Positions 2,919 through 34,540 of a stretch of 64,000 bases of DNA are shown piece after piece. A model generated the notes under the pieces. That model had not been told where the DNA came from. It made no database searches and saw nothing but the letters and a program-made list of their open reading frames with translations. The position numbers and the translations under genes were made by a program. Origin of the DNA: Paracoccaceae bacterium. Lineage in GTDB: Bacteria; Pseudomonadota; Alphaproteobacteria; Rhodobacterales; Rhodobacteraceae. Where the stretch lies: NCBI GenBank assembly GCA_026989055.1, contig JALSKC010000004.1:1-64000 (forward strand). The letters run 5' to 3'. Each line of letters starts with the position of its first letter. Positions within the stretch are counted from its first letter, which is position 1.

Positions 2919-3019
2919 CGGATAGGCCCCCGGGGTATCTGCAAATTGCCGTGGGTTATAGAGCCGGAGCGGCCGGATGCAAGGGGGCGGGGCGCTGCCC
3001 GGCGGGGCGGGGGTGCGGT

Positions 3020-4303: not shown

Positions 4304-4497
4304 GTTCACGGCCCCGCGGTCTGATCGAAACCTCAGCGTGGTTCAGGGCTAAGGGGTGCTGCGGAACATTTCCACCGCTGCACGGGCGGAGGCGAAAATT
4401 CCTTGCCGGAGTGCCGGAAAGGTCGCACCCCGCGACCGCCTGCCGGCGTCTTCCGGCGATGCTCGGGGCGCGCGGTGCTCCGGAGCGTTCTGTCTGC

Positions 4498-5742
4498 CTA
4501 TTCGGCTGCGTGGTGCAGGCGTTCCTCCACCGTCGGAGCGGCCGCATCCCGGTAGAGGTAGTCGCGCGTCAGCGGCACCGCTTCCTGGTCGCGCGCCAGC
4601 TGGAACTGGAACACCACCTGACCATCCAGCCGGAATGCCAGCTCCGAGCCCAGCAGGTAGAAGCGCCACATGCGGCAGAAGCGCTCGTCGTAGATTGCCC
4701 GGGCCCGCTCGATGTTGGCTTCGAAACGCGCCAGCCAGTTGCGCAGCGTTTCGGCGTAATGCAGCCGCCAGATCTCCACATCGGTTGCGGTCAGGCGTTC
4801 CCGCTCGATGGCCGCCATGGCCTCGGACATGGCCGGGACGTAGCCCCCGGGGAAGATGTACTTGAGAATGAAGGGGTTGGTGGTGCCCGGCCCGTCGGTG
4901 CGTCCGATGGTATGGATCAGCGCGATTCCGTCCGGCTTCAGCCGGTCGCGCACCTGGCGGAAATATTCGCGGTAATGCGGCACGCCGACATGCTCGAACA
5001 TGCCTACCGAAACGATCCGGTCGAAGCTTTCGCTTACCTCGCGGTAGTCCATCAGGCGGAACTCCACCCGATCGGCAAGCCCCGCCTCTTCGGCCCGGCG
5101 GGTGGCCACCGCGTGCTGTTCCTCGGAAAGCGTCACCCCCACCACATGCGCGCCGTAGTCGCGCGCCAGGGTCAGCGCCATGCCGCCCCAGCCGCAGCCG
5201 ATGTCCAGAACGCGCATGCCCGGCCTGATCAGCAGCTTGCGGGCGATGTGGTGCTTCTTGTTTTCCTGGGCCTGCTCCAGCGTGTCGTCGGGGCGGCGGA
5301 AATAGGCGCAGGAATACTGCCTGTCCCTGTCGAGGAACAGCTCGTAGAGCTCGCCCGAGAGATCGTAGTGGTGGGCCACGTTGCGCCTCGCCCTCCCGAC
5401 CGGGTTGAACTGGCCGAGCCGGCGCAGCGCCTTGCGGAGCCACTGAAGCGGGCGCTGCCACCAGAGCAGGCCGCGTTCGCTCCGGTTGCGCAGCAGCAGC
5501 GTGAGCAGGCCGCGCAGATCGTCGTTCCCGATGGTGAGCCCGCCGTTCATGTAGGCCTCGCCCAAGGCGAGTTCGGGGTTGAGGATCAGGGCGCGGACAG
5601 TGGCCCGCCGATGAACGGCGACATCGACCGCCGGCTCTCCCCCATCGCCATATGTCTGCCGGCTTCCGTCCGGGAAGCGCAGCGTCAGCGTTCCCCTTTT
5701 CACCAGATGGCGCAACAGCCGATCAAGAAGTGCATTCCACAT
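4498..5742 (-). CDS. cfa: Cyclopropane-fatty-acyl-phospholipid synthase family methyltransferase
   Basis: SAM-dependent enzyme that adds a methylene group across the double bond of unsaturated phospholipid acyl chains. The protein has 414 residues, normal for the family. An N-terminal lipid-binding region (about 1-100, with [18 protein letters not shown]) is followed by the methyltransferase core: [18 protein letters not shown], then [20 protein letters not shown], the SAM-binding [13 protein letters not shown], and [11 protein letters not shown]. The C-terminal part ([23 protein letters not shown]) matches Cfa. ATG at 5742 has GGGGGTGG close upstream. It is divergent from aspS across a 217-bp gap. 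Rhodobacterales often have several Cfa paralogues, so the exact lipid product is not certain. Confidence 0.9.
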
Positions 5743-5893
5743 GAGCCACCCCCAGTCGTGACTGGCGGAACACCAGGCGCGCGTTGTCCGAATATCCCCC
5801 TGACATCTCCACCTGCTGCGACATTCTGTCCGGTTTCTCCGCTCCTGTAAAGCCTGCCTTCCGGGGCATGGCGTGACCGGAACGCCATGCGGC

Positions 5894-5922
5894 TTGACTT
5901 CCGGGCGCGCACAAGGTGTATC
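5894..5922 (+). promoter_or_regulatory. Candidate sigma-70 promoter of aspS
   Basis: TTGACT (5894-5899), a 17-base spacer, then TGTATC (5917-5922), ending 37 bases before the aspS ATG. The -35 matches the strong TTGAC start expected in alphaproteobacteria. No transcription data support it; this is a sequence call only. Confidence 0.5.
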
Positions 5923-5959
5923 GGCGCGAACCGTTCCACGCTATCGCAGGGGCCCTGCC

Positions 5960-7738
5960 ATGCATGCCTACCGCAGCCACAACTGCGCCGAACTGAGCAA
6001 AGCCGATGTCGGCAAGAGCGTCCGCCTGTCGGGCTGGGTGCACCGGGTGCGCGACCACGGCGGCATCCTGTTCATCGACCTGCGCGACCACTATGGCATC
6101 ACCCAGGTCCTGTGCGACCCGGACAGCCCGGCCTTTGCCGAGGTCGAAAAGCTGCGCGCCGAATGGTGCATCCGCATCGACGGCGAGGTGAAGGCGCGCG
6201 CGCCCGAGCTGGTGAACCCCAAGATCCCCACCGGCGAGATCGAGGTCTTCATCCGCGACATGGAAGTTCTGGGCGCGGCCGGGGAGTTGCCGCTGCAGGT
6301 GTTCGGCGACCAGGAATACCCGGAAGAAACCCGGCTGAAATACCGCTATCTCGACCTGCGGCGCGAAAAGCTGCAGGACAACATGAAGCTGCGCGCGGAT
6401 GTCATCGCCTGGCTGCGCCGCGCCATGTGGGAGCGCGGCTTTCGCGAATACCAGACCCCGATCATCACCGCTTCCAGCCCCGAGGGGGCACGCGACTTCC
6501 TGGTGCCCTCGCGGCTGCATCCGGGCAAGTTCTACGCCCTGCCCCAGGCGCCGCAGCAGTTCAAGCAGCTGATCATGGTCTCGGGCTTCGACAGGTATTT
6601 CCAGATCGCGCCCTGCTTTCGGGACGAAGATCCGCGCGCCGACCGCTCGCCCACCGATTTCTACCAGCTCGACCTGGAAATGTCCTTCGTCACCCAGCAG
6701 GACGTGTTCGACACCGTCCAGCCGGTGATCCGGGGCTGTTTCGAGGAATTCGGCGGCGGGCGCAAGGTAGATGCCGACTGGCCGCAGATCAGCTACCGCG
6801 ACTCGCTCCTGTGGTATGGCACCGACAAGCCGGACCTCAGGAACCCGATCAGGATGCAGGTGGTGAGCGAGCATTTCAAGGGGTCGGGCTTCAGGATCTT
6901 CGCCTCGCTTCTCGAGCAGGAGGGCACCGAGGTCCGTGCCATCCCGGCCCCCGGCGGCGGCAGCCGCGCCTTCTGCGACCGGATGAACGCCTTCGCCCAG
7001 AAGGAGGGCCTGCCGGGGATGGGCTACATCTTCTGGCGGGAGAAGGACGGAGGCCTCGAAGGCGCCGGCCCGCTGGCCAGGAACATCGGCTCCGAACGCA
7101 CCGAGGCGATCCGCCGGCAGCTGGGCCTGGGCGCCGGGGATGCGGCCTTCTTTCTGGGCGGCAGGCCGAAGGCCTTCGAGGCCGTTGCCGGCAAGGCCCG
7201 CAACGTGATCGGAGAGGAGCTCGGCCTGACCGAGAAGGACCGTTTCGCCTTCTGCTGGATCGTCGATTTCCCGATCTTCCGGAAGGATGAGGAAACCGGC
7301 GCGCTCGATTTCGACCACAACCCGTTCTCCATGCCCCAGGGCGGGATGGAGGCGCTGGAGGGCGACCCGCTCAAGGTGCTCGGCTACCAGTATGATCTGG
7401 CCTGCAACGGCTACGAGCTGGTCTCTGGCGCGATCCGCAACCACCGCCCGGACATCATGTTCAGGACCTTCGAGATCGCCGGCTACGGGCGCGAGGAAGT
7501 GGAGCGGCGCTTCGGCGGCATGGTCAATGCCTTCAGATACGGCGCCCCGCCGCACGGGGGCTGCGCTGCCGGCATCGACCGCATGGTGATGCTGCTGGCG
7601 GACGAGGCCAACATCCGCGAAGTGATCATGTTCCCGATGAACCAGCGCGCCGAGGACCTGATGATGGGCGCCCCGAGCGTGCCGAGCAACGAACAGCTGC
7701 GCGAGTTGCGCCTGCGCGTGGTGCGTGAAGACAGCTAG
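5960..7738 (+). CDS. aspS: Aspartyl-tRNA synthetase
   Basis: Class II synthetase charging tRNA-Asp (in organisms lacking AsnRS it can also load Asp on tRNA-Asn). The protein has 592 residues. The start is set at [12 protein letters not shown] (5960); the same frame is open 29 codons further upstream, but that part has no family resemblance and covers the candidate promoter. Visible domains: an N-terminal OB-fold ([19 protein letters not shown]), the motif 2 region [19 protein letters not shown], the bacterial GAD insertion (about 290-420), and a C-terminal motif 3 region [14 protein letters not shown]. The stop codon lies at the start of a 20-bp tandem duplication, described separately. Confidence 0.97.
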
Positions 7739-7775
7739 CGCACCTGCACCCCGGATAGCGCGCCTGCACTCCGGG
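7736..7775. repeat. 20-bp tandem duplication starting at the aspS stop codon
   Basis: Copy 1 is TAGCGCACCTGCACCCCGGA (7736-7755) and copy 2 is TAGCGCGCCTGCACTCCGGG (7756-7775), 17 of 20 bases identical. The TAG that opens copy 1 is the aspS stop codon. It is one of four stop-codon-linked tandem duplications in this window. Confidence 0.9.
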
Positions 7776-7883
7776 ACAGTCGGCACCCCGAAACGGGGGC
7801 GGGATGCAACAAGGGCAGGAGGCGACCTTGCGGTGGCGGCGCCGGGGCGGGCATCGGCAGGCGCTGCCGCCTCTCCGCCGGCG

Positions 7884-7901
7884 GCGCCCCGGGCGCGTTT
7901 T
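7884..7901 (+). terminator. Possible aspS terminator hairpin
   Basis: A GC-only hairpin (GCGCCCCGGGCGC, 7884-7896) followed by GTTTTC, in the 189-bp gap between aspS and the convergent pilin gene. The loop is very tight and the T tract short. A weaker CCCCG-AAA-CGGGG hairpin lies at 7786-7798. Confidence 0.3.
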
Positions 7902-7927
7902 CAGGCAGGTTCTTCAGGCAGGTTCCG

Positions 7928-8062
7928 TCAGACGAGGGTGGAAATCAGGGCAACTCCCAGCGACAGGGCGCCGGCCCCGAAAACGGCCCAGTCGACGACG
8001 GCACTCCCCATTTCGTCATTCCAGAAACGGTTCACGATCGGTGTCATGGCAGACGGTTTCAT
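7928..8062 (-). CDS. Flp/Fap-type small pilin-like protein (44 aa)
   Basis: A 44-residue protein, too short for many gene finders. After a basic N-terminus (MKPSAMTPIVNRFWND) comes the typical Flp pilin turn E-M-G-S-A-V-V-D-W followed by a single hydrophobic segment AVFGAGALSLGVALISTLV. In known Flp pilins the prepilin peptidase cuts before a Glu-type motif close to the hydrophobic helix; the E in NDEMGSA is in the right place. ATG 8062 has GGGAGAA about 10 bases upstream, which supports a real gene. No cpa/tad assembly genes are nearby, so it is an orphan; a small membrane peptide unrelated to pili is the alternative. Confidence 0.65.
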   Translation of the reverse strand: MKPSAMTPIVNRFWNDEMGSAVVDWAVFGAGALSLGVALISTLV

Positions 8063-8251
8063 GACAGGTTCTCCCATTCCGGCAGTGCGGGCGGTCCTTC
8101 GGTGCAGTGCGGGCGGCCGTTCGGGCGGGTGGGCGCCTCGCGGGCCGTCTGCCGATGAATCGCGACAGAATCGGGCAAAAATGGGGTCCGCTCCGTACAA
8201 ATTCGTGATTTCCGAGTCTCCGCCATGACTGGCAGCATGACGCAAGAACAT

Positions 8252-8266
8252 GAACAGAGCATGAAC
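8252..8266. promoter_or_regulatory. LexA-like direct repeat (GAAC-N7-GAAC)
   Basis: GAAC-AGAGCAT-GAAC, which reads GTTC-N7-GTTC on the minus strand, the form reported for LexA boxes in Alphaproteobacteria. It sits in the 327-bp gap 8063-8389 upstream of the pilin-like gene. The rest of that gap contains no convincing gene. Eight fixed bases are expected once or twice by chance in 64 kb, so this is weak on its own. Confidence 0.25.
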
Positions 8267-8389
8267 ACTTGTCTGGCGGGACTTCCCCTTCCCCTCTTGC
8301 GTGACGGGCCGGCGGATCCTTCGCCGGCCGGGTCGCTGGCGGAGCGCGGCGTGATGCGGCAGCCCCGGGGAGCCGGATCGGTGCCGTGC

Positions 8390-9118
8390 TCAGCCCAGAA
8401 TGCCGTGCGGCCGGTGCAGGCGCGTGTCGAGCAGCGCCGCCAGCCGTTTCAGCGCGGCTCCGGTCGGGGCGCCCTTGCGGTGGCACGCCTCCAGCCGGCG
8501 GGCGGCCTGCCCGAGTGCCGGATCCCGTGCCAGCAGCGCGATCCCGGACAGGAACTGCGCCAGATAGGCAACCGGGCGCCGGTCGGCGGCCGGGCGGCGC
8601 AGGAGTTCGGCCGCATGGCGCAGATCGTCGCGCAGCGCCAGCGGATCGGGTGTGATCATGTCTCCGGAAACGGCCTGCAGCCGGTGCGGCCGCATGTCGC
8701 GCGGCAGGTGGCGGAGCACCTCGGCGCGGAAGGCCTCGAGGCTCGAGACGGGTTTGGCGAGAAAACCGTCCGCACCGGCCCGGCGGGCTGCGGCCTCTGC
8801 GTTGTCGTCTCCGCTGGTGCCGAGGATGACGGGCACCCGCGGGCGGGCATTGTCGAGTTCGCGGATCAGCTCTTCCCCCGACCCGTCGGGCAGGCCGAGA
8901 TCGACGATCAGCACCACCGGGCGATAGACCGCAAGGTGGCGGCGGGCGGCCCTCAGGCTGTCGGCGCGGCGGATGCGCGCTCCCGAGCGCAGGCACAGGA
9001 GCCGCATCGCCTCGCAGGCAAACCGGCTGTCTTCGACAACGAGAACCGTCAGGCCGAGCAGCGGGTGCTCGGGGGTGGGGGGGTGGATCCGCATGAAGGT
9101 GTCGGGCGCATCGGGCAT
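8390..9118 (-). CDS. Response regulator with N-terminal receiver domain and unknown C-terminal region
   Basis: A 242-residue protein with a CheY-like receiver at about 22-145. The acidic pair is E29-D30 (VLVVEDSRF), the likely phosphorylated residue is D73 (LIVDLGLPDGSG), the switch Thr/Ser is in LGTSGDD, and the conserved lysine is K122 (FLAKP). From about 150 to the end the protein is helical and Arg/Leu-rich, with no recognisable DNA-binding, GGDEF or EAL signature. ATG 9118 has AGGAG eight bases upstream, so this start is favoured over M9. No histidine kinase is adjacent. The output may be by protein-protein contact; that is inference. Confidence 0.85.
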   Translation of the reverse strand: MPDAPDTFMRIHPPTPEHPLLGLTVLVVEDSRFACEAMRLLCLRSGARIRRADSLRAARRHLAVYRPVVLIVDLGLPDGSGEELIRELDNARPRVPVILGTSGDDNAEAAARRAGADGFLAKPVSSLEAFRAEVLRHLPRDMRPHRLQAVSGDMITPDPLALRDDLRHAAELLRRPAADRRPVAYLAQFLSGIALLARDPALGQAARRLEACHRKGAPTGAALKRLAALLDTRLHRPHGILG

Positions 9119-9261
9119 GATCGTGCTCCTGCATCTGCGGGCATTAAAGCCCCGGTATCCTGAACGGCGGGTTAATTGCCGCGGCGGGCGGCCTGTCCCT
9201 TGCTTCTGGCGGCGGTTTGCGGGATGAGGGGGGAGTGGCTCAGCGAGCGGGAATGCATGCG

Positions 9262-9666
9262 ATGATCGGACGGCTCAATCATGTCGCCATTGCCGTGCCC
9301 GACCTGGCGGCGGCGGCGGCGCTTTACCGGGACAGCCTGGGGGCCCGGGTCGGCCCGCCCCTGGCACAGCCGGATCACGGCGTCAGCGTGGTGTTCGTCG
9401 AGCTTCCGAACACCAAGGTCGAGCTGCTTTCCCCGCTGGGCGAGAACAGCCCCGTTGCCGCCTTTCTGGAGCGCAACCCGGCCGGGGGCATCCATCACAT
9501 ATGCTACGAGGTGGCGGATATCGCCGCCGCCCGGGATCGGCTGGTGGCGCGCGGGGCGCGGATCCTCGGCGACGGGGAGCCGAAGATCGGGGCGCATGGC
9601 AAGCCGGTCCTGTTCCTGCACCCGAAGGACTTCAACGGAACCCTGATCGAGCTGGAACAGGTCTGA
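9262..9666 (+). CDS. mce: Methylmalonyl-CoA epimerase
   Basis: Interconverts (R)- and (S)-methylmalonyl-CoA in propionyl-CoA breakdown, between propionyl-CoA carboxylase and methylmalonyl-CoA mutase. The protein of 134 residues is a glyoxalase/VOC fold with the family opening IGRLNHVAIAVPDL and the metal-ligand segments NHVA, VELLSP, IHHICYEV and the C-terminal LIELEQ. The start ATG at 9262 follows GCGGGA; an in-frame ATG three codons earlier (9253) is less well spaced. It shares one base with the downstream DUF1467 gene (TGATG), a pairing often seen in Rhodobacterales. Confidence 0.92.
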   Translation: MIGRLNHVAIAVPDLAAAAALYRDSLGARVGPPLAQPDHGVSVVFVELPNTKVELLSPLGENSPVAAFLERNPAGGIHHICYEVADIAAARDRLVARGARILGDGEPKIGAHGKPVLFLHPKDFNGTLIELEQV

Positions 9667-9920
9667 TGGCGATAACCTCGGCGATCGTGCTCTTCTTCGT
9701 CATCTGGTTCATGGTGTTGTTCGTGGTGCTCCCGATCGGGGTGCGCACCCAGGGAGACGAGAACGACGTGGTGCCCGGCACGCTGCCCGGCTCGCCGGTG
9801 AATTTCCGTATCAGGCGGACATTCGCCATCGTCACGCTGATCTCGACGGTGCTGTTCGTCATCATCGCGGGAATCATCCTGTCGGGGGTGCTCCGGATCA
9901 GTGAGCTGGGCTGGATCTGA
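9666..9920 (+). CDS. DUF1467 family small membrane protein
   Basis: An 84-residue protein with two membrane helices (about 4-25 and 54-76) separated by the polar loop GVRTQGDENDVVPGTLPGSP, the hallmark of DUF1467 proteins of Alphaproteobacteria. Its function is unknown. The start overlaps the epimerase stop by one base, so the two are almost certainly co-translated. The pair ends before an independent SLC13 permease with its own Shine-Dalgarno. Confidence 0.85.
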   Translation: MAITSAIVLFFVIWFMVLFVVLPIGVRTQGDENDVVPGTLPGSPVNFRIRRTFAIVTLISTVLFVIIAGIILSGVLRISELGWI

Positions 9921-9978
9921 ACGCTTGATCGGGGCTGGCGCGACCGTCATGATCGGCGCATTCTGACGGAGCCTGCCG

Positions 9979-11760
9979 ATGATCCCCTTGCCGACCCTCG
10001 CGCCGGATTTCCAGGCGCTGGCCGCGCTGGCGGTGGTTGCGGGGATGTTCGTGCTGTTCCTGCGCGAAACCTACCCGGCCGAGGTCGTGGCCATTTCCGG
10101 GGCCGCGCTCATGCTTGCCTTCGGCATCCTGCCCTATGAGCGGGCCGTGGAGGTGCTGGCGAACCCGGCCCCCTGGACGATCGCGGCGTTGTTCGTCGTG
10201 ATGGGGGCGCTGGTGCGCACCGGCGCGCTTGACCGGCTCACCCGTCTGGCGGCGGTGCGGGCCCGGCGGCATCCGGCGCTGTCGGTCGGAGCACTGATCG
10301 GCCTTGTGGTTCTGGCGTCGGCATTCGTTTCCAACACTCCGGTGGTGCTGGTGATGATTCCGGTCTTCGTGCAGCTGGCCGGGCAGCTTTCGGTCGCGCC
10401 CTCGAAACTGCTGATCCCGCTGTCCTATGCCGCGATTCTGGGCGGCACGCTGACGTTGATCGGCACTTCGACGAATCTTCTGGTCGACGGGGTGGCCCGG
10501 GCGCACGGGCTGGCACCGTTCACGATTTTCGAAATCAGCCCGCTGGGGCTGGCACTGGTCGCCTGGGGGATGCTCTACCTGCGGTTCATCGCCCCGCGCC
10601 TGCTGCCCGAGCGCCAGAGCATGGCGGCCCTGCTGGCGGGTCGCGCGCGGATGAGATTCTTCACCGAGGTGGCGATACCGGAAGGCAGCGCGCTGGTCGG
10701 GCGCCGAGCGGTGGAGGTCGATCTGTTCCGGCGCGAGGGAGTGCGGCTGGTGGATGTGCTGCGCGGCGATGCCTCGCTGCGGCGCGAGCTGGAAAAGGCG
10801 GTGCTCGCCCCCGGCGACCGGGTGGTGCTGCGTTCGGAAATGGGCGAGCTTCTGGGGCTGCAGCACGATCCGCAGCTGCGGATGATCGACAAGCTGAGCT
10901 CGGTGCGCACGACAACGGTCGAGGCGCTGATCTCGCCGGGCTGCCGGATGATCGGGCGCCGGCTGGGCGAGTTGCGGCTGCGCCGGCGCTACGGGGTCTA
11001 TCCGCTGGCCGTTCATCGGCGCGACGAGAACATCTCGGGCCAGCTGGACGATGTCGTGGTGCGCGTCGGCGATACCCTGCTGCTGGAAGGCACGCCGGAG
11101 GATATCGGACGCCTGTCGCAGGACATGCGGCTCGTGAGCATCACCCGACCCGCGGCGCGGGCCTTCCGGCGCCGGCATGCGCCGCTGGCGCTGGCCGCGC
11201 TGGGCGGGATCGTGGTGCCGGCGGCTTTCGGGGTGGCGCCGATCCTCCTGCTGGCGGTGCTGGCGGTGGCCTTCGTGTTCCTGACCCGCTGCATCGATTC
11301 CGAGGAGGCCTTCGCCGTCATCGACGGGCGGCTTCTGGCGCTCATCTTCGCGATGCTGGCGGTCGGCGCGGGGCTGGAAGCTTCGGGCGCGGTGGAGCTG
11401 ATCGCGAAGGCGCTGACCCCGCTGTTCCGGGAACTGCCGCCGTTCCTCGTGATCTGGGGGGTCTACCTCCTTACCTCGGTCCTGACCGAGCTGGTTTCCA
11501 ACAATGCGGTCGCCGTGGTGGTCACGCCGGTCGCGATCGGGCTGGCCCACTCCCTCGGCCTGGATCCGCGCCCGCTTGTGGTGGCGGTGATGGTGGCCGC
11601 CTCGGCCAGCTTCGCCACGCCCATCGGCTACCAGACCAACATGCTGGTCTACGGCCCCGGCGGCTACCGGTTCGCCGATTTCCTGCGGGTCGGCATTCCG
11701 CTCAACCTTTCGGTAGGCCTGCTGGCCTCGGCGCTGATCCCGCTCATCTGGCCGCTGTGA
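9979..11760 (+). CDS. SLC13 (DASS)-type permease with RCK_C domains
   Basis: A 593-residue polytopic permease of the citrate/dicarboxylate/sulfate DASS superfamily. Two membrane halves flank a soluble middle (about 210-390) that looks like two RCK_C/TrkA-C regulatory domains (RRAVEVDLFRREGVRLVDV and GRRLGELRLRRRYGVYPLAV). The hairpin-tip motifs are present: ASAFVSNTPVVLV with GTSTNLLV in the first half, and LVSNNAVAVVV with TPIGYQTNMLVYGPGGY in the second. ATG 9979 has GGAG upstream. Substrate is not predictable from sequence. It is convergent with a permease of identical length (593 aa) and the same architecture at 11928-13709. Confidence 0.88.
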   Translation: MIPLPTLAPDFQALAALAVVAGMFVLFLRETYPAEVVAISGAALMLAFGILPYERAVEVLANPAPWTIAALFVVMGALVRTGALDRLTRLAAVRARRHPALSVGALIGLVVLASAFVSNTPVVLVMIPVFVQLAGQLSVAPSKLLIPLSYAAILGGTLTLIGTSTNLLVDGVARAHGLAPFTIFEISPLGLALVAWGMLYLRFIAPRLLPERQSMAALLAGRARMRFFTEVAIPEGSALVGRRAVEVDLFRREGVRLVDVLRGDASLRRELEKAVLAPGDRVVLRSEMGELLGLQHDPQLRMIDKLSSVRTTTVEALISPGCRMIGRRLGELRLRRRYGVYPLAVHRRDENISGQLDDVVVRVGDTLLLEGTPEDIGRLSQDMRLVSITRPAARAFRRRHAPLALAALGGIVVPAAFGVAPILLLAVLAVAFVFLTRCIDSEEAFAVIDGRLLALIFAMLAVGAGLEASGAVELIAKALTPLFRELPPFLVIWGVYLLTSVLTELVSNNAVAVVVTPVAIGLAHSLGLDPRPLVVAVMVAASASFATPIGYQTNMLVYGPGGYRFADFLRVGIPLNLSVGLLASALIPLIWPL

Positions 11761-11810
11761 GCCGGTTCGCCCGCAGGGAACCCCGGCCGGATGAATCGCG
11801 GGGCCATTCT

Positions 11811-11881
11811 CTTCATCTTGCCGCAAATACTCTCGGGGGTGAATTTGCCCGCAGGGCAAAGAGGGGGCAGACGGCCCCCTC
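11811..11881 (+). repeat. Gene-end repeat with two hairpins (copy 1)
   Basis: Starts CTTCATCTTGCCGCAAATAC (about 11813), about 50 bases after the plus-strand SLC13 stop. It is followed by a TTTGCCC-GCA-GGGCAAA hairpin (11844-11860) and a GAGGGGGC-AGACG-GCCCCCTC hairpin (11861-11881). Related sequences occur at 34326-34356 and 34499-34540, always 3' of a gene and in that gene's orientation. A role as a (bidirectional) transcription terminator is likely here, between two convergent genes. I remember similar gene-end repeats in Rhodobacteraceae genomes but could not search for them. Confidence 0.6.
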
Positions 11882-11906
11882 CCTTCACACAATTCCTCAA
11901 ATCCTT

Positions 11907-11952
11907 AAAGCGGCCAGAACAGCAGGATCAAAGCGGCCAGAACACCAGGATC
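11907..11952. repeat. 23-bp tandem duplication over the end of the minus-strand SLC13 gene
   Basis: Two adjacent 23-bp copies (11907-11929 and 11930-11952) differ at one base. On the minus strand the gene-proximal copy encodes ILVFWPL followed by TGA; the distal copy would encode ILLFWPL followed by TAA in another frame. The duplication therefore duplicated the last seven codons and the stop region, and because 23 is not a multiple of three the gene now ends in the proximal copy. Confidence 0.9.
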
Positions 11953-13709
11953 GCCGGGATCGAGACCGCCACCACGATGATTTCCAGCGGCAGGCCCATG
12001 CGCCAGTAGTCGCCGAAATCATAGCCGCCGGGGCCGAGGATGAGGGTGTTGTTCTTGTGCCCGATGGGCGTGAGGAAGGCGCAGGAGGCGGCCACCGCCA
12101 CCGCCATCAGGAACGGGTCGGGGGAGACCCCGAGCGTTTGTGCCATCTGGATGCCCACCGGGGCGGCCACGATGGTGGTGGCGGTATTGTTGAGCACGTC
12201 CGAGAGCGTCATCGTCACCGCCATCAGCACCGTGAGGATGGCCCATGCCGGCAGCCCTTCGGTGAGGCGGAGCAACGCACCGGCGATCAGCTCGGTTCCG
12301 CCCGCTTCCTCCAGGGCCGCCCCCAGCGGGATCATCGAGCCGAGCAGCACCACCACGGGCCAGGAAATCTGCTCGTAGATTTCGGCAAGGGGAAGGATCC
12401 TGGCGAGCACGAAACCGATCACCACCAGCCCCAGGGCGATCGGCAGATAGATCAGCCCGAAGCTGGCTGCGGCCACCGCCGCGCCGAACATGGCAACCGC
12501 CGGCCAGACCTTCCTTTCGTCGGTAACCTGAAGGCCGCGCCCGGCCAGGGGCAGCACGCCGAGCCACTCGATCACGTCGTTCGTCTGTTCGGCCGGGGTG
12601 AGCAGCAGCAGGATGTCGCCCGTCTGCATCCGGGTCTTGCGGATCTGGCGGGCGATGCGCCGCCCGCGGCGGGAAATGCCCAGCAGCACCGTGCGCCGGC
12701 GCCAGCCCAGGCCGATCGCCTGGGCGCTCTTGCCGCGGATGCGGGAATCTTCCGGCACCACCACCTCGACCACCTGCAGCCCCTCGCCCTCGGCGGTCAG
12801 CGCCTGCTGGCGCCGGGGGTCGGCGAAGTCGAGCGACAGCGCCGCGCGGAATTCGTCGAGCGCTTCGGGGTGGGCCTCGATCACGATCGCATCGCCTGCG
12901 CGCAGCACGGCGTTGCGCGCGGTGCCGTAGCGGCGCCTGCCGTCGCGCACCAGCCCGAGAATGGCCACATCGTTCCTTTCGGCCTCGGCCTCCAGCTCGT
13001 GCAGCCGCCGGCCGATCAGCTTCGAGTCTCCGGGCACCGTCAGCTCGGCGATGTATTGCGCGATCTCGCCCATCGGATCGGCGCCCGAGGCGCCCTGCGC
13101 GCGGCTCGGGATCAGCCGCCAGCCGATCAGCGCCACGAAGGCCAGCCCGGCCAGGGCGGCCAGCCCGCCCACCGGGGCGAAATCGAACATCGCGAATGGC
13201 GTGCCCAGGGCATCCTCGCGGATCGCGGCGATGATGATGTTGGGCGGTGTGCCGATCAGCGTCACCATGCCGCCGAGGATGGTGGCGAAGGACAGCGGCA
13301 TCAGGCTCAACGCCGCGCTCCGCCCGGCCCTGCGCGCGCTCTGGATGTCCACCGGCATCAGCAGCGCCAGCGCGGCGACGTTGTTCATGAAGGCCGAAAG
13401 GACGCCCCCGAGCGCGCCCATGAGGGCGATATGGGCGCCGAGGCTGCGGCCGGAATCCACCAGCGCACGGGTGATCAGCAGGACTGCCCCCGAGCGCACC
13501 AGCCCGCCCGAGACCACCAGCACCAGCGCCACCACCAGCGTGGCCGGGTGCCCGAAGCCGGCAAAGGCCTCCCCGGCGGGAACCACCCCCAGCACCACCC
13601 CGGCCATGAGCGCCGCAAAGGCCACCAGATCGTAGCGGAATTTCCCCCACAGCAGCAGGGCGAAGACGGCGGCGAAAAGGGCAAACAGGATGATCTGATC
13701 ACTGGTCAT
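11928..13709 (-). CDS. SLC13 (DASS)-type permease with RCK_C domains (second paralogue)
   Basis: A 593-residue permease with the same plan as the plus-strand neighbour: MTSDQIILFALFAAVFALLL, NNVAALALLMPV and LIGTPPNIIIAAI in the first half, a soluble two-RCK_C middle (LIGRRLHELEAEAERNDVAI, GKSAQAIGLGWRRRTVLLG), and VLNNTATTIVAAPVGI with PIGHKNNTLILGPGGYDFGD in the second. An upstream open stretch of 69 codons to 13916 lacks family features; the ATG at 13709 gives the normal start. The C-terminus FWPL is immediately followed by a second, out-of-frame copy of the last codons (see the repeat). It is divergent from yebC across 140 bp. Confidence 0.88.
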   Translation of the reverse strand: MTSDQIILFALFAAVFALLLWGKFRYDLVAFAALMAGVVLGVVPAGEAFAGFGHPATLVVALVLVVSGGLVRSGAVLLITRALVDSGRSLGAHIALMGALGGVLSAFMNNVAALALLMPVDIQSARRAGRSAALSLMPLSFATILGGMVTLIGTPPNIIIAAIREDALGTPFAMFDFAPVGGLAALAGLAFVALIGWRLIPSRAQGASGADPMGEIAQYIAELTVPGDSKLIGRRLHELEAEAERNDVAILGLVRDGRRRYGTARNAVLRAGDAIVIEAHPEALDEFRAALSLDFADPRRQQALTAEGEGLQVVEVVVPEDSRIRGKSAQAIGLGWRRRTVLLGISRRGRRIARQIRKTRMQTGDILLLLTPAEQTNDVIEWLGVLPLAGRGLQVTDERKVWPAVAMFGAAVAAASFGLIYLPIALGLVVIGFVLARILPLAEIYEQISWPVVVLLGSMIPLGAALEEAGGTELIAGALLRLTEGLPAWAILTVLMAVTMTLSDVLNNTATTIVAAPVGIQMAQTLGVSPDPFLMAVAVAASCAFLTPIGHKNNTLILGPGGYDFGDYWRMGLPLEIIVVAVSIPAILVFWPL

Positions 13710-13784
13710 GGCGGGGCTCCGGCTTTGCGTGCCACACAAGCCGAAGCAACGGGCAATTGCAACGCCGCTTCGGGGCGCCAAGGC

Positions 13785-13814
13785 TTGCAGCCCGCCCGCG
13801 CGCTGACATATAGA
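13785..13814 (+). promoter_or_regulatory. Candidate sigma-70 promoter of yebC
   Basis: TTGCAG (13785-13790), 18-base spacer, TATAGA (13809-13814), ending 35 bases before the yebC ATG in the 140-bp divergent gap. Sequence match only. Confidence 0.45.
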
Positions 13815-13849
13815 AGCCCGAAGGCTGAAATCATTCGGGGAACGGGCGC

Positions 13850-14590
13850 ATGGCAGGCCATTCCAAATGGGCGAATATCCAGCACCGCAAGGGGCGGCAG
13901 GATGCGGCCCGGGCAAAGCTGTTTTCCAAGCTCTCCAAGGAGATCACCGTGGCCGCAAAGCTGGGTGATCCGGATCCGGACAAGAACCCGCGCCTGCGCC
14001 TGGCGGTGAAGGAGGCGCGTGCGAATTCGGTGCCCAAGGACGTGATCGAGCGGGCGATCAGGAAAAGCCAGGGAGGCGACGCCGAGAGCTACGAGGAGAT
14101 CCGCTACGAGGGCTACGGCCCCGGCGGGGTGGCGGTGATCGTCGAGGCGATGACCGACAACCGCAACCGCACCGCCAGCTCGGTGCGTTCGATCTTCGCC
14201 AAGCACGGCGGTTCGCTGGGCGAGACCGGCTCGGTCAGCTTCATGTTCGAGCGCAAGGGCGAGATCCGCTACCCGCTGGGCATCGGCGATCTGGAGCGGG
14301 TCATGGAAGCGGCGATCGAGGCCGGCGCGGAAGATGTGGAAGACACCGATGACGGCTACGTCATCTGGACCGAGGCCACCGACCTGGCGGCGGTTTCCAA
14401 CGCGCTGGACGAGCTTCTCGGACCCTCGGAAAGCGCCAGGCTGGTATGGCGGCCCACCACCACGGTGGAGCTCGATCTCGAGGGCATGCAGAAGCTGACG
14501 AAGCTGATCGAGGCACTCGAGGACGATGACGACGTGCAGCGCGTCACCGCCAATTTCGAAGTTTCCGAAGAGGTGATCGCGCAGCTCTGA
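13850..14590 (+). CDS. yebC: YebC/PmpR family regulator or translation factor
   Basis: The 246-residue protein begins [19 protein letters not shown], diagnostic for YebC. The family includes DNA-binding regulators (PmpR) and, by recent work, ribosome-associated factors that help translate difficult (for example polyproline) motifs. The three-domain layout is visible: a helical N-terminus with LFSKLSKEI and [19 protein letters not shown], the [19 protein letters not shown] segment, and an acidic C-terminus ([12 protein letters not shown]). In many genomes yebC precedes ruvC; here it is followed by an EamA exporter, so that context is lost. Confidence 0.95.
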
Positions 14591-14641
14591 GCACGCCGAA
14601 TCGGGCTTGTGCCCGCCGCCGATCCGGCGGAAGTTGCCCCC

Positions 14642-15544
14642 ATGAACAGATCCGCCGACCGGCCGCTTGCCGGTATCCTGTGGATGGCGGCAACCGGGCT
14701 GTGCTTCGTCGCCGTCACCGCCATCGTCAAGTTCGTCGGCAACCGCCTGCCGGCGGCCGAAGGGGCGTTCCTGCGCTACCTGCTGGGGCTGGTGCTGCTG
14801 GCGCCGATGCTGCGCCCGATGCTGCGCGCCCGCCTCGATGGCCGGGCGCTGGCAAGCTTCGCCCTGCGCGGGCTGGTGCACAGCCTGGGGGTGATCCTGT
14901 GGTTCTACGCCATGGCGCGGATTCCGATCGCCGAGGTCACCGCCATGAACTACCTCGCGCCGGTCTATGTCACGCTGGGTGCGGCGCTGTTTCTGGGCGA
15001 GAAGCTGGCCGCGCGCCGGCTGATCGCGGTGGTGGTGGCGCTGCTCGGGGCGCTGGTGATCCTGCGCCCGGGGTTTCGCGAGATCTCGCCCGGCCATCTG
15101 GCGATGCTGGGCACGGCGGTATTCTTCGCCGCCTCCTACCTGATCGCCAAGCGCATGAGCGGACAGGTCTCGCCCTCGGTGGTGGTGGGGATGCTCTCGA
15201 TCACCGTCACCATCGGGCTGGCCCCTTTCGCCTATGCGGTCTGGGTGCCGCCGACCCTGGCGCAGATGGGCTGGATGTTCCTGGTGGCCTGTTTCGCGAC
15301 TGCCGGCCATTATACCATGACGCTGGCCTTCCGCGCCGCTCCGGTGACCGTGACCCAGCCGGTAACCTTCCTGCAGCTGCTGTGGGCGGTGCTGCTGGGG
15401 GCGCTGGTCTTCGGCGAGCCGGTGGATGGATGGGTGGTGCTGGGCGGGGCGATCATCCTCGGTTCGGTCACCTTCATCTCCTGGCGCGAGGCCATGCTGA
15501 AACGCCGCGCCATCACGCCCGCGATGCCGGCAACGAAGACATGA
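14642..15544 (+). CDS. EamA/DMT-family transporter
   Basis: A 300-residue integral membrane protein with ten helices in two EamA repeats, of the drug/metabolite transporter superfamily. Typical pieces are EGAFLRYLLGLVLLAP in the first repeat, the AEVTAMNYLAPVYVTLGA loop-helix that ends it, and QPVTFLQLLWAVLLGALVFGE in the second. The ATG at 14642 follows GGCGGAAG; a GTG at 14609 is in frame but lacks support. Likely an exporter of small metabolites; the substrate is unknown. Confidence 0.85.
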   Translation: MNRSADRPLAGILWMAATGLCFVAVTAIVKFVGNRLPAAEGAFLRYLLGLVLLAPMLRPMLRARLDGRALASFALRGLVHSLGVILWFYAMARIPIAEVTAMNYLAPVYVTLGAALFLGEKLAARRLIAVVVALLGALVILRPGFREISPGHLAMLGTAVFFAASYLIAKRMSGQVSPSVVVGMLSITVTIGLAPFAYAVWVPPTLAQMGWMFLVACFATAGHYTMTLAFRAAPVTVTQPVTFLQLLWAVLLGALVFGEPVDGWVVLGGAIILGSVTFISWREAMLKRRAITPAMPATKT

Positions 15545-15665
15545 GGCGTGCCGGCGGAGCAGGCCGGCGCGTGCACGGAGCGGCCGATTGACGCGAGGCC
15601 GGGCGCGCCGCTATCACGGCGGTGGCCGTGGCTGTAGCCGTGACCGGCGTTGAAAGGGCGACGGG

Positions 15666-16304
15666 ATGAAGATTCTGACGGGGACAGTGTTCTGGCTCGC
15701 TCTTGCAGGTTCCGCCCTGGCGCAGGCCGCCGGGGAAACTCTGTTGCCGGCGCTGTTCGATGTGGTCGGCGTGCGGGCGGATGACGTCCTGAATGTCCGC
15801 CAGGGGCCGGGGGTCGGGTTTGCGGTTGTCGATACGCTTGCAGCCGATGCGCGGGACGTCGAGGTCGTGGCGCTGGACGAGCGCATGGGCTGGGCCCATG
15901 TGGCGGGCACCGAAGGGGGCGGCTGGGTTGCCCTGCGTTATCTGAAGCGCCAGCCGGGACAGGAGGACGGCCGTTTGCCGCAGCCATTGCTGTGCAGCGG
16001 GACGGAACCGTTCTGGAGCCTTGATCTGGCCGGGGACGACAGTGCCGTTTTCGCGGAGCCGGGGGGCGGGGAGCATCTGCTGTCGCGCCAGTGGGAGCGA
16101 TCGGCGGAGGGGGCGCCACCGATGGATTTCGTGGCGGTTCTTGCGGGCACCCGGGCATCGCTCACCGCAGTGATCAGCCGCGAATCGTGTTCGGACGGCA
16201 TGAGCGATCGGCCTTACGGGCTGCGTGCGCGGGTCGCGACCGATGGCGCCCTGGGTCGCCGGTTGTTGCGTGGTTGCTGCTACCTGCCCGGCGGGCGGGA
16301 GTGA
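15666..16304 (+). CDS. Exported SH3-domain protein with COG3650-like C-terminus
   Basis: A 212-residue protein with a clear signal peptide (MKILTGTVFWLALAGSALAQA, probable cleavage after AQA). Residues about 30-95 form a bacterial SH3 domain (VRADDVLNVRQGPG, GWAHVAGTEGGGWVALRYL). The rest contains CSGTEPFWSLDL and a late CYLPGG, the pattern of COG3650/META-like lipid-envelope proteins. Predicted periplasmic; cell-wall or ligand binding is inferred from the SH3 fold. The 3' end overlaps the convergent choV 3' end by 25 bases (16280-16304). Confidence 0.7.
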   Translation: MKILTGTVFWLALAGSALAQAAGETLLPALFDVVGVRADDVLNVRQGPGVGFAVVDTLAADARDVEVVALDERMGWAHVAGTEGGGWVALRYLKRQPGQEDGRLPQPLLCSGTEPFWSLDLAGDDSAVFAEPGGGEHLLSRQWERSAEGAPPMDFVAVLAGTRASLTAVISRESCSDGMSDRPYGLRARVATDGALGRRLLRGCCYLPGGRE

Positions 16305-17371
16305 AGCCGCGCGGTTCCCCGCCCGGCATTTCCCTGCCCGGTATCCGGAAGGCCTGCCGGGTCGAGCAGGCGTTCGAGAATGGCCTCCTGGGTGATCATC
16401 CCGACAAGTTCCCCGTTTTCGGTGACGCCGAGCCTGCCCCGGTTCGAGAGCAGCCTTTCCATGACATCGCGCACCGCGGTGTCGGCCTCGACCCGGGGGG
16501 TGATGTCGCCCACGGCCCCGACCATGACATCGCGCGCGGTGAGCACCCCGAGCGGGTTCATGTTGGCGACGAAATCGGCCACGTAGTCGTTCGACGGGTT
16601 CGAGAAGATCTCTCGCGGGCTGCCGCACTGCACGATCCGCCCGCCCTCCATGATGGCGATGCGGCTGCCGATCTTGAAGGCCTCGTCCAGGTCGTGGCTG
16701 ACGAAGACGATCGTGCGCCGCAGCCTGGCCTGAAGTTCCAGCAGTTCGTCCTGCAGCCGGGTGCGGATCAGCGGATCGAGCGCCGAAAACGGCTCGTCCA
16801 TCAGCAGGATCGGCGCCTCGGTGGCAAAGGCGCGCGCCAGACCCACCCGCTGCTGCATGCCGCCGGAAAGCTCTCCCACCTTGCGCTCGGCCCACTCCGA
16901 CAGGCCGACAAGTTCCAGCTGCTCGGCCACCCTGGCCATGCGCGCGGCCCGGCTCATGCCGCCCAGCTCCAGCCCCAGGCCGACGTTTTCGGCCACCGTG
17001 CGCCAGGGCAGCAGGGCGAACTGCTGGAAGACCATCGCGATGGTGTTCAGCCGCAGCCGGCGCAACGTGGCCGGATCGGCCCGGGTCACCGATACCATCT
17101 GCCCGCGGTGGCGCACCCGAACTTCGCCCCGGGTCACCGGGTTGAGCCCGTTCACCGCGCGCAGAAGCGTGGACTTGCCCGAACCCGACAGCCCCATCAG
17201 CACCACGATCTCGCCCTCCTCGACGGCAAGCGAGCAGTCGTGCACCCCCAGCACCTGGCCGGTTTCCTGCCGGATCTCGCCGCGCTCGCGGCCCTGGTCC
17301 ATCAGGGGCAGGGCGCGTTCGGGGCGGTCTCCGAAGACGATGGAAACCCGGTCGAACTCGACGGCGATCAT
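16280..17371 (-). CDS. choV: Choline/glycine-betaine ABC transporter ATPase
   Basis: Energy-coupling ATPase of a binding-protein-dependent quaternary amine importer (ProV/ChoV type). The protein has 363 residues: Walker A GLSGSGKST, Q-loop VFQQFALLPWRTV, signature LSGGMQQR, Walker B ILLMDEPFSALDP and H-loop FVSHDLDEA. A C-terminal extension (about 280-345) with DITPRVEADTAVRDVM and MITQEAILERLL is a CBS-type domain, which in OpuA-like systems senses ionic strength. ATG 17371 overlaps the permease stop as ATGA. The gene is third in choX-choW-choV. Confidence 0.9.
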   Translation of the reverse strand: MIAVEFDRVSIVFGDRPERALPLMDQGRERGEIRQETGQVLGVHDCSLAVEEGEIVVLMGLSGSGKSTLLRAVNGLNPVTRGEVRVRHRGQMVSVTRADPATLRRLRLNTIAMVFQQFALLPWRTVAENVGLGLELGGMSRAARMARVAEQLELVGLSEWAERKVGELSGGMQQRVGLARAFATEAPILLMDEPFSALDPLIRTRLQDELLELQARLRRTIVFVSHDLDEAFKIGSRIAIMEGGRIVQCGSPREIFSNPSNDYVADFVANMNPLGVLTARDVMVGAVGDITPRVEADTAVRDVMERLLSNRGRLGVTENGELVGMITQEAILERLLDPAGLPDTGQGNAGRGTARLHSRPPGR

Positions 17372-18201
17372 CTGCGCTCCACCCGCAGCATCCGGTCCAG
17401 CACGATCGCCACCACCACGATGATGAAGCCGCTCTCGAATCCCAGGGCGGTGTTCACCTGGTTGAGGGCGCGCACTACCGGCACCCCCAGCCCGTCGGCC
17501 CCCACCAGGGCGGCGATCACCACCATCGAGAGGCTGAGCATGATCGTCTGGTTGAGCCCGGCCATGATCTGCGGCATTGCCCAGGGCAGTTCCACCTTCC
17601 ACAGGCTCTGGCGCGGGGTGGCGCCGAAGGCCTGGGCGGCCTCGAGCAGCGGCTGCGGGGTCGAGCTGACGCCCAGATGGGTCAGCCGGATCGGCGCCGG
17701 CAGCACGAAGATCACCGTGGCGATCAGGCCGGGCACCATGCCGATGCCGAAGAACACGATGGCCGGGATCAGATAGACGAAGGTGGGCAGGGTCTGCATC
17801 AGGTCGAGCACCGGGCGCATGACGCGGTAGAGCCGCGGCCGGTGCGCGGCGGCGATTCCGATCGGCACGCCCAGCCCCATGCAGACCGCACTTGCGGCCA
17901 GCACCAGGGTGAGGCTTTCGGTGGTTTCCTCCCAGTAGCCCTGGTTGAGGATGAAGGCAAAGCCCAGCGCCACCAGAAGCGCCGTCTTCCACGAGCGCTG
18001 CAGCACCCAGCTCAGCGCCACGAAGGCGGCGATCACCAGAAAGGGGCTCGGGGTCTGGAGCGCCCACAGCAGGGCGGAGATCAGCGCCTCCAGCCCCTCG
18101 GCCAGCCCGTCGAAGAACCACGCCCCGTTGTCCTGCAGCCAGTCGAAGGCGGCCCGGGCCGTCTTTCCCACCGGGATCTTGGTCTCCGTCAGCCAGTCCA
18201 T
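17368..18201 (-). CDS. choW: Choline/glycine-betaine ABC transporter permease
   Basis: The membrane subunit of the same importer, 277 residues with about seven helices. The coupling motif region reads LEAAQAFGATPRQSLWKVELPWAMPQIMAG, here shown only in part (EAAQAFGATP is the conserved EAA loop). RPVLDLMQTLPTFVYLIP is the typical ProW/OpuAB signature. It starts at ATG 18201, follows choX by about 108 bases and overlaps choV by four. The N-terminal tail is short compared with E. coli ProW. Confidence 0.9.
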   Translation of the reverse strand: MDWLTETKIPVGKTARAAFDWLQDNGAWFFDGLAEGLEALISALLWALQTPSPFLVIAAFVALSWVLQRSWKTALLVALGFAFILNQGYWEETTESLTLVLAASAVCMGLGVPIGIAAAHRPRLYRVMRPVLDLMQTLPTFVYLIPAIVFFGIGMVPGLIATVIFVLPAPIRLTHLGVSSTPQPLLEAAQAFGATPRQSLWKVELPWAMPQIMAGLNQTIMLSLSMVVIAALVGADGLGVPVVRALNQVNTALGFESGFIIVVVAIVLDRMLRVERR

Positions 18202-18309
18202 TGACCGCTCTCCGTTTCCGGGCCCGTTCGACCCCGCGGTGCGGGGCCGGCGGTGGCAGGAAGGGCCCCGGAACGCGGCCGGAGCCCGGTTCTGCCTGCC
18301 CGGGCCGGT

Positions 18310-19245
18310 CTACATGATTCCCAGCGCGGCCTTCACCGCCGCAAGCCCGTCGCCGCCGTCCATGGTGGACACGCCTGCAAGCCAGTCCTCAAGGATGCCG
18401 GGGTTGGCCCTGAGCCAGGAGGTGGCGGCCTCGGCCGGATCTTCGCCGTCGTTCAGGATCGCGCCCATGATCTCGTTTTCCATCTCGAGGGTGAATTCGA
18501 GATTCTTCAGCAGCGCGCCCACGTTGGGGCATTCCTCCACATAGCCGGCGCGGGTGTTGGTATAGACGGTTGCACCACCGAAATCGGGGCCGAACCAGTC
18601 ATCTCCGCCTGAAAGATAGGTCAGCTCGAAACTGGCGTTCATCGGATGCGGCTCCCAGCCGAGAAAGACGATCGGTTCGCCCCTGCGGTTGGCGCGCTCC
18701 ACCTGCGCCAGCATCCCCTGTTCGGAGCTTTCCACCACCTCGAAGCCGCTCAGCCCGAAGGCATCCTGCGCGATCATGTCCATGATCAGCCGGTTGCCGT
18801 CGTTGCCCGGCTCGATGCCGTAGATCCTGCCGTCCAGTTCATCCCTGAACTGTGCGATGTCGGCGAAATCCCTGATCCCCAGGTCGGCCGCCGCCTTGTT
18901 GACCGCCAGCGTGTATTTCGCGCCCTGCAGGTTGGCGCGCACGGTCTCCACGGTTCCGGCCTCGCGGTAGGGAGCGATGTCGGCTTCCATCGTCGGCATC
19001 CAGTTGCCCAGGAAGACATCCACATCGCCATTGGCCAGCGAGGTGTAGGTGACCGGCACCGAGAGCACCTTGGTGTCGGTCTCGTAGCCCAGCGCCTCCA
19101 GCACCACCGAGGTGGCGGCGGTGGTGGCGGTGATGTCCGTCCAGCCGACATCGGAGAATGTCACCTTGCTGCAGTCGCTGCCGGCCAGCGCCGGGCCGGC
19201 CAGCGCCGCCAGCACGATGGCGGACAGGGTTGTTCTGAGTGTCAT
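18310..19245 (-). CDS. choX: Choline/betaine ABC transporter periplasmic binding protein
   Basis: Periplasmic receptor of the importer, 311 residues. The chosen ATG (19245) follows GGGGAGCTTGCC and begins a signal peptide MTLRTTLSAIVLAALAGPALA; the frame is open 19 codons further but without a leader. The mature part has the OpuAC/ChoX pattern: VGWTDITATTAAT, FLGNWMPTMEADIAPY and VFLGWEPHPMN, where Trp residues commonly build the aromatic cage for the trimethylammonium group. It is first in choX-choW-choV. Choline versus betaine specificity cannot be settled by eye, so the cho names are a best guess. Confidence 0.82.
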   Translation of the reverse strand: MTLRTTLSAIVLAALAGPALAGSDCSKVTFSDVGWTDITATTAATSVVLEALGYETDTKVLSVPVTYTSLANGDVDVFLGNWMPTMEADIAPYREAGTVETVRANLQGAKYTLAVNKAAADLGIRDFADIAQFRDELDGRIYGIEPGNDGNRLIMDMIAQDAFGLSGFEVVESSEQGMLAQVERANRRGEPIVFLGWEPHPMNASFELTYLSGGDDWFGPDFGGATVYTNTRAGYVEECPNVGALLKNLEFTLEMENEIMGAILNDGEDPAEAATSWLRANPGILEDWLAGVSTMDGGDGLAAVKAALGIM

Positions 19246-19262
19246 GGCAAGCTCCCCGGTTT

Positions 19263-19278
19263 TTGACTGACGGATCAA
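19263..19278. promoter_or_regulatory. Inverted repeat upstream of choX (possible BetI-type operator)
   Basis: TTGA-CTGACGGA-TCAA, followed at once by a further TTCAA (19279-19283), 18 bases upstream of the choX ATG. BetI operators in other bacteria are built from TTGA/TCAA half-sites around choline genes, but the spacing here is not a close match and no betI is in the window. Confidence 0.25.
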
Positions 19279-19359
19279 TTCAAAGCCGAAGCTCCGCCTC
19301 ATGTCCAGAAGATTTTCCCCTGCCGTGCGGGCGGGGCGGGGTGCGGCACGGGCGGCGGC

Positions 19360-20696: not shown

Positions 20697-20835
20697 CGCG
20701 GTCTCCTGTACGGTCGGCTTCCTCTCCTATGTTCCGCGACAAGGTTCAAGCGGTTTTGGAAGCTGCTCCGGGGTGGAAATACGCTCCGGTCGCCGCTGAA
20801 GGGGGCGGCCCGCGGGGGCGCCGGACATCCGCGGT

Positions 20836-21933: not shown

Positions 21934-22009
21934 GGAAAGTTTCCTTTCATATCCGGTCATCTCCGGGGGGGCACGGGCCGGCCCCGCCGGGGAGAACGGC
22001 GGAGAGACG

Positions 22010-22524: not shown

Positions 22525-22676
22525 GCCGCCAGCCTAGGCGGGCGGCAGCGGGGCCGCAAGCGCTTCCTGCCGCCCTCTCCTTCCCGTTTCCTTTCCGCGC
22601 CCGTGCCGCGGCCGCGCATGCTGGCGCGGGCGCTCGGCTCGGGCTAGGATTTCCGCAAACGACAGCGGAGGGACGG

Positions 22677-26001: not shown

Positions 26002-26004
26002 CGC

Positions 26005-28682: not shown

Positions 28683-28697
28683 GATGAGGGGAGTCCC

Positions 28698-34325: not shown

Positions 34326-34356
34326 TTTCTTCCTCCCGAAATCTCCTCGGGGGGCG
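34326..34356 (+). repeat. Gene-end repeat (copy 2)
   Basis: Starts TTTCTTCCTCCCGAAATCTC about 50 bases after the rhomboid stop and continues CTCGGGGGGCGA, closely resembling the copy at 11813 (CTTCATCTTGCCGCAAATAC, then TCGGGGGTGA). It runs in the gene's orientation. It leads directly into two perfect 15-bp tandem units. Confidence 0.55.
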
Positions 34357-34377
34357 AGCCGGCGGGGGGCGAGCCGG
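34348..34377. repeat. Two perfect 15-bp tandem units
   Basis: CGGGGGGCGAGCCGG at 34348-34362 repeated exactly at 34363-34377, within the 268-bp gap between the rhomboid gene and murJ. The gap otherwise holds the two gene-end repeat copies and no gene that I can support. Confidence 0.9.
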
Positions 34378-34498: not shown

Positions 34499-34540
34499 GC
34501 CTCCGGCGGAGGTATTCCCGGCAAGAGGAAGGGGAAGGGG
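34499..34540 (-). repeat. Gene-end repeat (copy 3), after murJ
   Basis: On the minus strand it reads CTTCCTCTTGCCGGGAATAC, then a CCTCC-GCC-GGAGG hairpin, starting within a few bases of the murJ stop. Compare copy 1, CTTCATCTTGCCGCAAATAC: 16 of 20 bases are the same. The orientation relative to its gene is the same as in the other two copies. Confidence 0.6.

Follow-up and report, generated by a model that had tools for sequence, protein, structure and literature searches.

The window analysed here, a stretch of 64,000 nucleotides, carries at 11811 one copy of a dispersed element. We tentatively favour, with a confidence that falls just short of even, the reading that it is a gene-end RNA element with a word recognised by a putative lineage-specific factor. 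Two sets of observations bear on this directly: the placement of the element at gene ends in both orientations in named genomes, together with the covarying hairpins of its tail, and the spelling of its words, which are uniform within a genome and differ between genomes and at sites shared by sister species. In the following, G000 denotes the window's genome (2.77 Mb in 83 contigs) and G060 that of a sister species of the same genus.

The features of the window to which we refer are these:

9979..11760, plus strand: left neighbour, a CitMHS (SLC13-type) transporter gene with a TrkA_C domain, which stops 50 nt 5' of the word
11811..11832, plus strand: lineage word CTTCATCTTGCC-GC-AAATACTC, an exact match to the main word of G000
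11844..11860, plus strand: tail hairpin 1, TTTGCCC-GCA-GGGCAAA, 7 bp, part of a type C tail
11861..11881, plus strand: tail hairpin 2, GAGGGGGC-AGACG-GCCCCCTC, 8 bp
11928..13709, minus strand: right neighbour, a convergent CitMHS/Na_sulph_symp transporter gene
34326..34360, plus strand: degenerate relative of the word with a G-rich tail, 3' of a Rhomboid-domain gene (33588-34274)
34499..34531, minus strand: second good copy, word CTTCCTCTTGCC-GG-GAATACCT with the type A tail CCGCCGGAGGC, 3' of the MurJ gene (34543-36084, minus strand)

The initial annotation had placed the element at 11811-11881, continuing into two perfect hairpins, with convergent SLC13 genes around it. The core, CTTCATCTTGCCGCAAATAC at 11811-11830 on the plus strand, and both hairpins, with stems of 7 and 8 bp, are indeed present, and Pfam confirms CitMHS (SLC13-type) transporter genes on either side of a 167-base space. 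The fold of this copy is moderately strong on the plus strand (z -2.7) and unremarkable on the minus strand (z -1.1). Rfam returns nothing at gathering score at the window units, and the segment 11700-12000 gives just matches with E of 1.5 and 5.7. Elsewhere in the window, at 54893-55180 (+), Rfam matches RF02514, the 5' ureB sRNA, with 123.8 bits.

Searched with the pattern CTTCNTCTTGCCGNNAATAC at up to three mismatches, the window gives two matches, both exact, at 11811 (+) and 34512 (-); the same search on the shuffled window gives a mean of 0.12, and two matches were reached in 1 of 100 shuffles. Two relatives, at 34326 and 34499, had been said to keep the core. This is true of the latter, a minus-strand unit whose core runs from 34531 down to 34510 and whose tail continues to 34499, and not of the former, which is degenerate and gives no match to the core at up to three mismatches. 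Neither folds better than shuffled sequence (z -0.25 for the 34.5-kb copy and -0.18 for the 34326 relative).

A unit comprises a pyrimidine-rich word of 10-13 bases, then 2-3 free bases and AAATAYYC, and in most cases a structured tail. Units occur singly or back to back, in which case their arms can pair as a long hairpin. The dinucleotide after the word is indeed free: 13 of the 16 possible ones are seen in 121 exact copies, AA being the commonest (28). The type A tail is CCGCCGGAGGC, often with another hairpin 3' of it, the type B tail is a GGGGG...CCCCC hairpin, and the type C tail, to which the 11811 copy belongs, has an extra hairpin ahead of the G5/C5 hairpin; in some lineages, many copies are devoid of a hairpin tail. 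Of the 39 copies caught by the pattern, 34 form hairpin 1 of type C with a stem of 5 bp or longer; the mean stem is 6.15 versus 2.31 when shuffled (200 shuffles, largest 2.92). Since these copies hold 28 different stem sequences and pairing is kept, structure rather than sequence is conserved in this hairpin.

Several observations on individual copies may be added. At the G027 loci L284, L285, L290, L293 and others, the type A tail is followed by a GACGCGCGAAGCGCGGCGCAAA-type hairpin repeated in tandem, which has compensatory variants such as GACGTGCGCAGCACGGCGC. By eye, the copies agree with the earlier statement that the element is no transposon with inverted ends, apart from L005 and L029 (G000 C43:148670 and C3:20780). 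In these two type A copies, an ATGAAG end complements a CTTCAT or TTCAT start, which hints at inverted ends in some copies.

Back-to-back words enclose a conserved cassette of about 150 nt at G000 C68:19505-19640 and C20:9897-10028 (L042 and L043), and also at L057, L060, L067 and L138. It contains CAGGCTGGAGAGCCGATGGGCGTGCAAGGTGAAG, a GC hairpin, a Shine-Dalgarno-like GGAG and the ATG of a short ORF, and in L057, L060 and L138 it adjoins what we take to be a GST-like gene. Rfam leaves the cassette unmatched in L042 and L043; it may be a new small RNA or leader. At 216-343 of L043, 1.6 kb from the unit pair, Rfam matches RF02646, the Ruegeria Cis8 sRNA. In G060, an additional stretch of about 1 kb (contig C456, 2576-3597, L053) separates the orthologous SLC13 genes and adjoins a back-to-back pair.

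The element is dispersed, as the initial annotation had stated. The 22-base core used for genome counts, CTTCATCTTGCC-NN-AAATACTC, occurs in G000 in 29 copies at up to two mismatches, with none for the reversed control, and at up to three mismatches a genome-wide search finds 44 places versus nine for the reversed control, so that further copies exist outside the window. Counting G000 itself, 64 of 149 family genomes match this core at up to two mismatches, with a maximum of 136 copies; in genomes with other dialects such counts are lower bounds, since the G000 word was the query. In named genome contigs, the exact core is present in at least 80 records, which are titled as Rhodobacteraceae MAGs, as genera that we assign to that family or as MAGs of Alphaproteobacteria without further rank. 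The element thus appears to be widespread in its family, which we take from the record titles to be the Rhodobacteraceae. Some of the carrier genera are presumably members of this family, and NCBI classes some annotated carriers as Roseobacteraceae or Paracoccaceae, order Rhodobacterales.

The constant tail AAATAYYCCCGCCGGAGG gives a similar delimitation. With one pyrimidine demanded 15 bases upstream, it is found in all but one of 21 chosen family genomes; among 190 genomes drawn from the class, it is found in two, both family members, and is lacking in the third family member of the draw and in all 187 genomes of other families. A phage origin was considered and rejected, the one match in 50,697 phage records being a 19-base stretch within a gene; the exact core also occurs on four IMG/VR contigs. 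Our literature search, for which subscription papers were mostly out of reach, found no description of the element, and an earlier report may exist. By term counts, Rhodobacter, Ruegeria, Silicibacter, Paracoccus, Roseobacter and alphaproteobacteria do not occur in the main text of PMC3733652, and PMC2267715 mentions neither these genera nor Caulobacter.

The placement of the element relative to genes was scored with a home-made gene caller at 115 loci of named genomes, which hold 121 exact copies among the matches listed. Of these listed copies, 14 lie too close to the locus end, and 101 of the 107 classifiable ones are intergenic, the other six being inside predicted genes. The intergenic copies, again among the matches listed, divide into 34 in convergent spaces, 27 sense and 38 antisense in co-directional spaces, and 2 in divergent spaces, while the 431 background spaces of at least 60 bases at the same loci comprise 67 convergent, 256 co-directional and 108 divergent ones. 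Divergent spaces are therefore avoided (p 3e-9) and convergent spaces enriched (p 1e-4), and there is no difference between sense and antisense (p 0.21). A second gene caller, applied to the named loci, gave 34 convergent, 28 sense, 39 antisense and 3 divergent copies and 4 in genes, with p values of 3e-9 for the avoidance, 6e-5 for the enrichment and 0.22 for sense versus antisense.

An orientation locked to the gene just upstream had also been proposed. All three window copies agree with it, but as a rule it is wrong, because the co-directional copies of the named genomes point either way; the lock holds to gene ends only, not to the orientation of the upstream gene. Copies anchored by their tail behave similarly in G027 (n=20: 10 convergent, 3 sense, 7 antisense, 0 divergent) and in G131 (n=22: 8 convergent, 5 sense, 5 antisense, 1 divergent, 3 inside genes). 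The 24 tail-anchored copies of G060 (5 convergent, 3 sense, 5 antisense, 2 divergent, 9 inside genes) speak against avoidance, with 2 of the 15 intergenic copies called divergent and 9 of all 24 inside genes. In G000, two automatic gene-calling runs placed 5 of 27 and 6 of 25 copies in divergent spaces, that is, without avoidance. Both runs got the Pfam-verified genes at 11811 wrong, their models having been trained on 1.43 Mb and yielding shadow genes and wrong strands; we therefore do not rely on these orientation counts. In a further count, for which the window was the caller's only training sequence, the 42 G000 places at up to five mismatches, chance matches included, are a mix of convergent, sense and antisense places, with about three divergent ones. 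Finally, the deposited annotation of plasmids has units that separate fdhF from the NuoF gene, rfbA from the epimerase gene and dgcA from dgcN, and these units likely sit within operons.

The words themselves were compared in a search that required the tail and left the word open; all words given here are among the matches listed. One to three fixed words were found per genome. G000 has TTCATCTTGCC and a few copies of CTTCTTCTGTCC, G060 has TTCTTCTGTC and CTTTTTCG, and G131 has mainly CATCCTCTCGA, with a few TTCATCTTGG; in this search, G060 and G131 are each dominated by a single word. G051 has the word TTCATTCTGG, and the two words of G027, CTTTCTCGT and TTCTTCTGGC, are linked. In G005, TTTCATCTCTTC is paired with ACTC and CTTCTTCTGTTC with ATCC, the final bases being tied to the word.

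To follow such differences at individual sites, G060 was compared with 1.44 Mb of G000 sequence, about half of the genome. An orthologous G000 place exists for 14 of 47 G060 half-units, at 11 loci; with the SLC13 and mcc sites, this makes 13 loci, which were classified by eye, aided by word and tail scores. The word differs between the species at four of them (C57:38049, C4:109609, SLC13 and mcc) and is identical in both at one (C43:114427). At another four, the G000 copy is degraded, with the tail alone remaining in two, and at the last four there is no recognisable G000 copy, with a tail-like stretch at one. Many copies are consequently dispensable. The clearest site is C57:38049, where each species has one of its own words: identity is 94% over the 100 bases upstream, the word matches at 14 of 22 positions, and the downstream sequence at 17 of 17 and then, in another stretch, at 78 of 80. 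At C4:109609, SLC13 and mcc, the difference in the word is less clean.

The mcc junction lies between genes which we take from their sequences to be mccB and mccA. It holds an inverted pair whose two arms are spelled differently in the two species and still fold together into a long hairpin in each (z -4.7 and -3.2); the word that G060 uses here is not one of its two common ones. By eye, about 15 of 30 family genomes hold a unit or a back-to-back pair at this junction and the rest none; many of these units have their own spelling, and the sample is less biased than groups built on flanking genes. Such groups were formed from the flanking genes of 149 copies, G000 and named ones combined. Of the resulting 17, seven have both neighbours matched across different genomes and ten only one; three of the ten are weak, at 35-39% identity, and among these one links two G000 copies. 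In the seven two-neighbour groups, the word is kept, with one mismatch in one G000 copy, and tails and flanks are mostly unalignable by eye; this persistence is biased, since the exact word was used to find most of the loci. UbiG was also tried as an orthologous marker site and given up: 29 of 30 loci were readable, the neighbours differ, and the pattern detects no unit.

The main rival to a gene-end RNA element, one that we consider a live possibility while leaning against it, is a selfish or domesticated short repeat of the REP/REPIN kind, mobilised by some enzyme distinct from the known Y1 (RAYT) transposase. The dialects would then be successive families, and the gene ends the places where insertions are tolerated, which would fit the observed bias. 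Like REP, BIME and REPIN sequences, the element is short, extragenic and mosaic, has tens to hundreds of copies, forms hairpins as inverted doublets and comes in several families per genome. Back-to-back doublets account for 8 of the 24 tail-A units of G060 and, by eye, for about 9 of its 20 tail-C places. Three G027 copies (L281, L289 and L291, and in part L278) have a longer spacer in common, which speaks for copy-and-paste, and this rival would also accommodate the one to three families per genome with linked halves and the degraded and missing copies of older words in G000 versus G060. Against it, single units exceed pairs in G131 (2 of 22 paired) and G027 (3 of 20), and their words look intact by eye, whereas PMC3116915 describes weaker conservation for REPIN singlets.

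Unlike in REP-type repeats, moreover, a non-palindromic conserved word here adjoins a variable hairpin, many singlets look intact, and the word differs at a shared site while tail and flanks stay; where the word persists at sites common to several genomes, in the biased sample described above, this likewise counts against mobility. The RAYT transposase itself was rejected as the mobiliser: among 80 family genomes, counting G000, seven have the Y1_Tnp gene (PF01797); G000 lacks it, and none was found in G005, G025 and G027 despite their many copies. Neither a GTAG nor a CGTC tag, the REP tags named in the title of PMC3733652, was seen by eye in the consensus words or tails.

A DNA-uptake-type word, with natural transformation or DNA delivered by gene transfer agents (GTA) driving genus dialects as for the DUS of Neisseriaceae, is in our view very improbable. 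There are likenesses: the words form lineage dialects that are uniform inside a genome and different between genomes, two may coexist, and units lie at gene ends and in inverted pairs, just as PMC3630211 describes DUS dialects and inverted pairs at terminators. The same source gives 1543-3770 DUS copies in genomes, though, and the element has at most 136 per genome (two mismatches, 149 genomes), at least 10 times fewer. At 20-22 bp with a free gap, its word is long for a DUS, and a structured tail is attached to it. As to GTA, packaging has no known recognition sequence according to PMC6854486, which also cites a report of non-random packaging in Dinoroseobacter shibae.

Least likely of all are ordinary intrinsic terminators that look similar by chance: GC-rich hairpins at gene ends, their enrichment in convergent spaces and a terminator-like site at 34396-34412, beyond the degraded 34326 relative, would suit them, but no T-run follows the hairpin at 11811, sense and antisense copies are about equal in number, units stand between apparently co-transcribed genes (mccB-mccA, fdhF-NuoF, dgcA-dgcN and rfbA-epimerase), and termination needs neither a conserved 20-base word nor a dialect. 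The initial annotation had likewise denied that the 11811 copy is an ordinary terminator, and no terminator-like site, nor a canonical T-run terminator, is listed at 11805-11890. Among spaces of at least 50 bases in the first 104 kb of contig C4, a unit occupies 2 of the 9 convergent ones and none of the 27 co-directional or 12 divergent ones; it is therefore not the general terminator. Terminator-like sites in the window number 8 versus 9.5 expected by chance at 1-20000, 9 versus 10.0 at 20001-40000 and 17 versus 9.4 at 40001-60000; given the excess in the last segment, canonical terminators may exist in G000. On the features tested, both the DUS-like and the plain-terminator readings fail.

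We return to the gene-end RNA element. As judged from sequence, it would be transcribed into 3' UTRs or into spacers between the genes of an operon, where its tail may serve in the RNA as a 3'-end or processing barrier that is independent of direction. The word would be the recognition site of a putative trans-acting factor, protein or RNA, and the specificity of this factor may shift by lineage, compelling the copies to follow. Several results speak against this reading: many copies are devoid of a hairpin tail, G000 has only a degraded copy at four of the 13 compared loci and no recognisable one at another four, three G027 copies have a longer spacer in common, the window units fold moderately well at best, and divergent spaces are not avoided in the G060 calls or in the less reliable G000 runs. 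A more specific proposal, which we hold to be somewhat unlikely and nevertheless worth stating, is that the Rhodobacteraceae possess a reader, a putative protein or guide-like RNA, for a gene-end word of 20-22 bases in either orientation; its specificity would change repeatedly and the copies would be respelled in place, through site-by-site selection or active rewriting, to give dialects unrelated to DNA uptake. The bacterial parallels known to us are the DUS dialects and the REP/RAYT pairs, and neither fits.

Words of about 20 bases that are uniform at tens of sites and differ within a genus are what would be expected of a co-evolving reader, and so is a change of word at sites with kept tail and flanks. 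Should the element be mobile instead, it would represent a REP-like system without the known transposase. As the words differ between sister species, the question of reader versus mobile repeat is directly testable. A reader, if there is one, would introduce a sequence-specific step into the ending, processing or insulation of transcripts in the Rhodobacteraceae.
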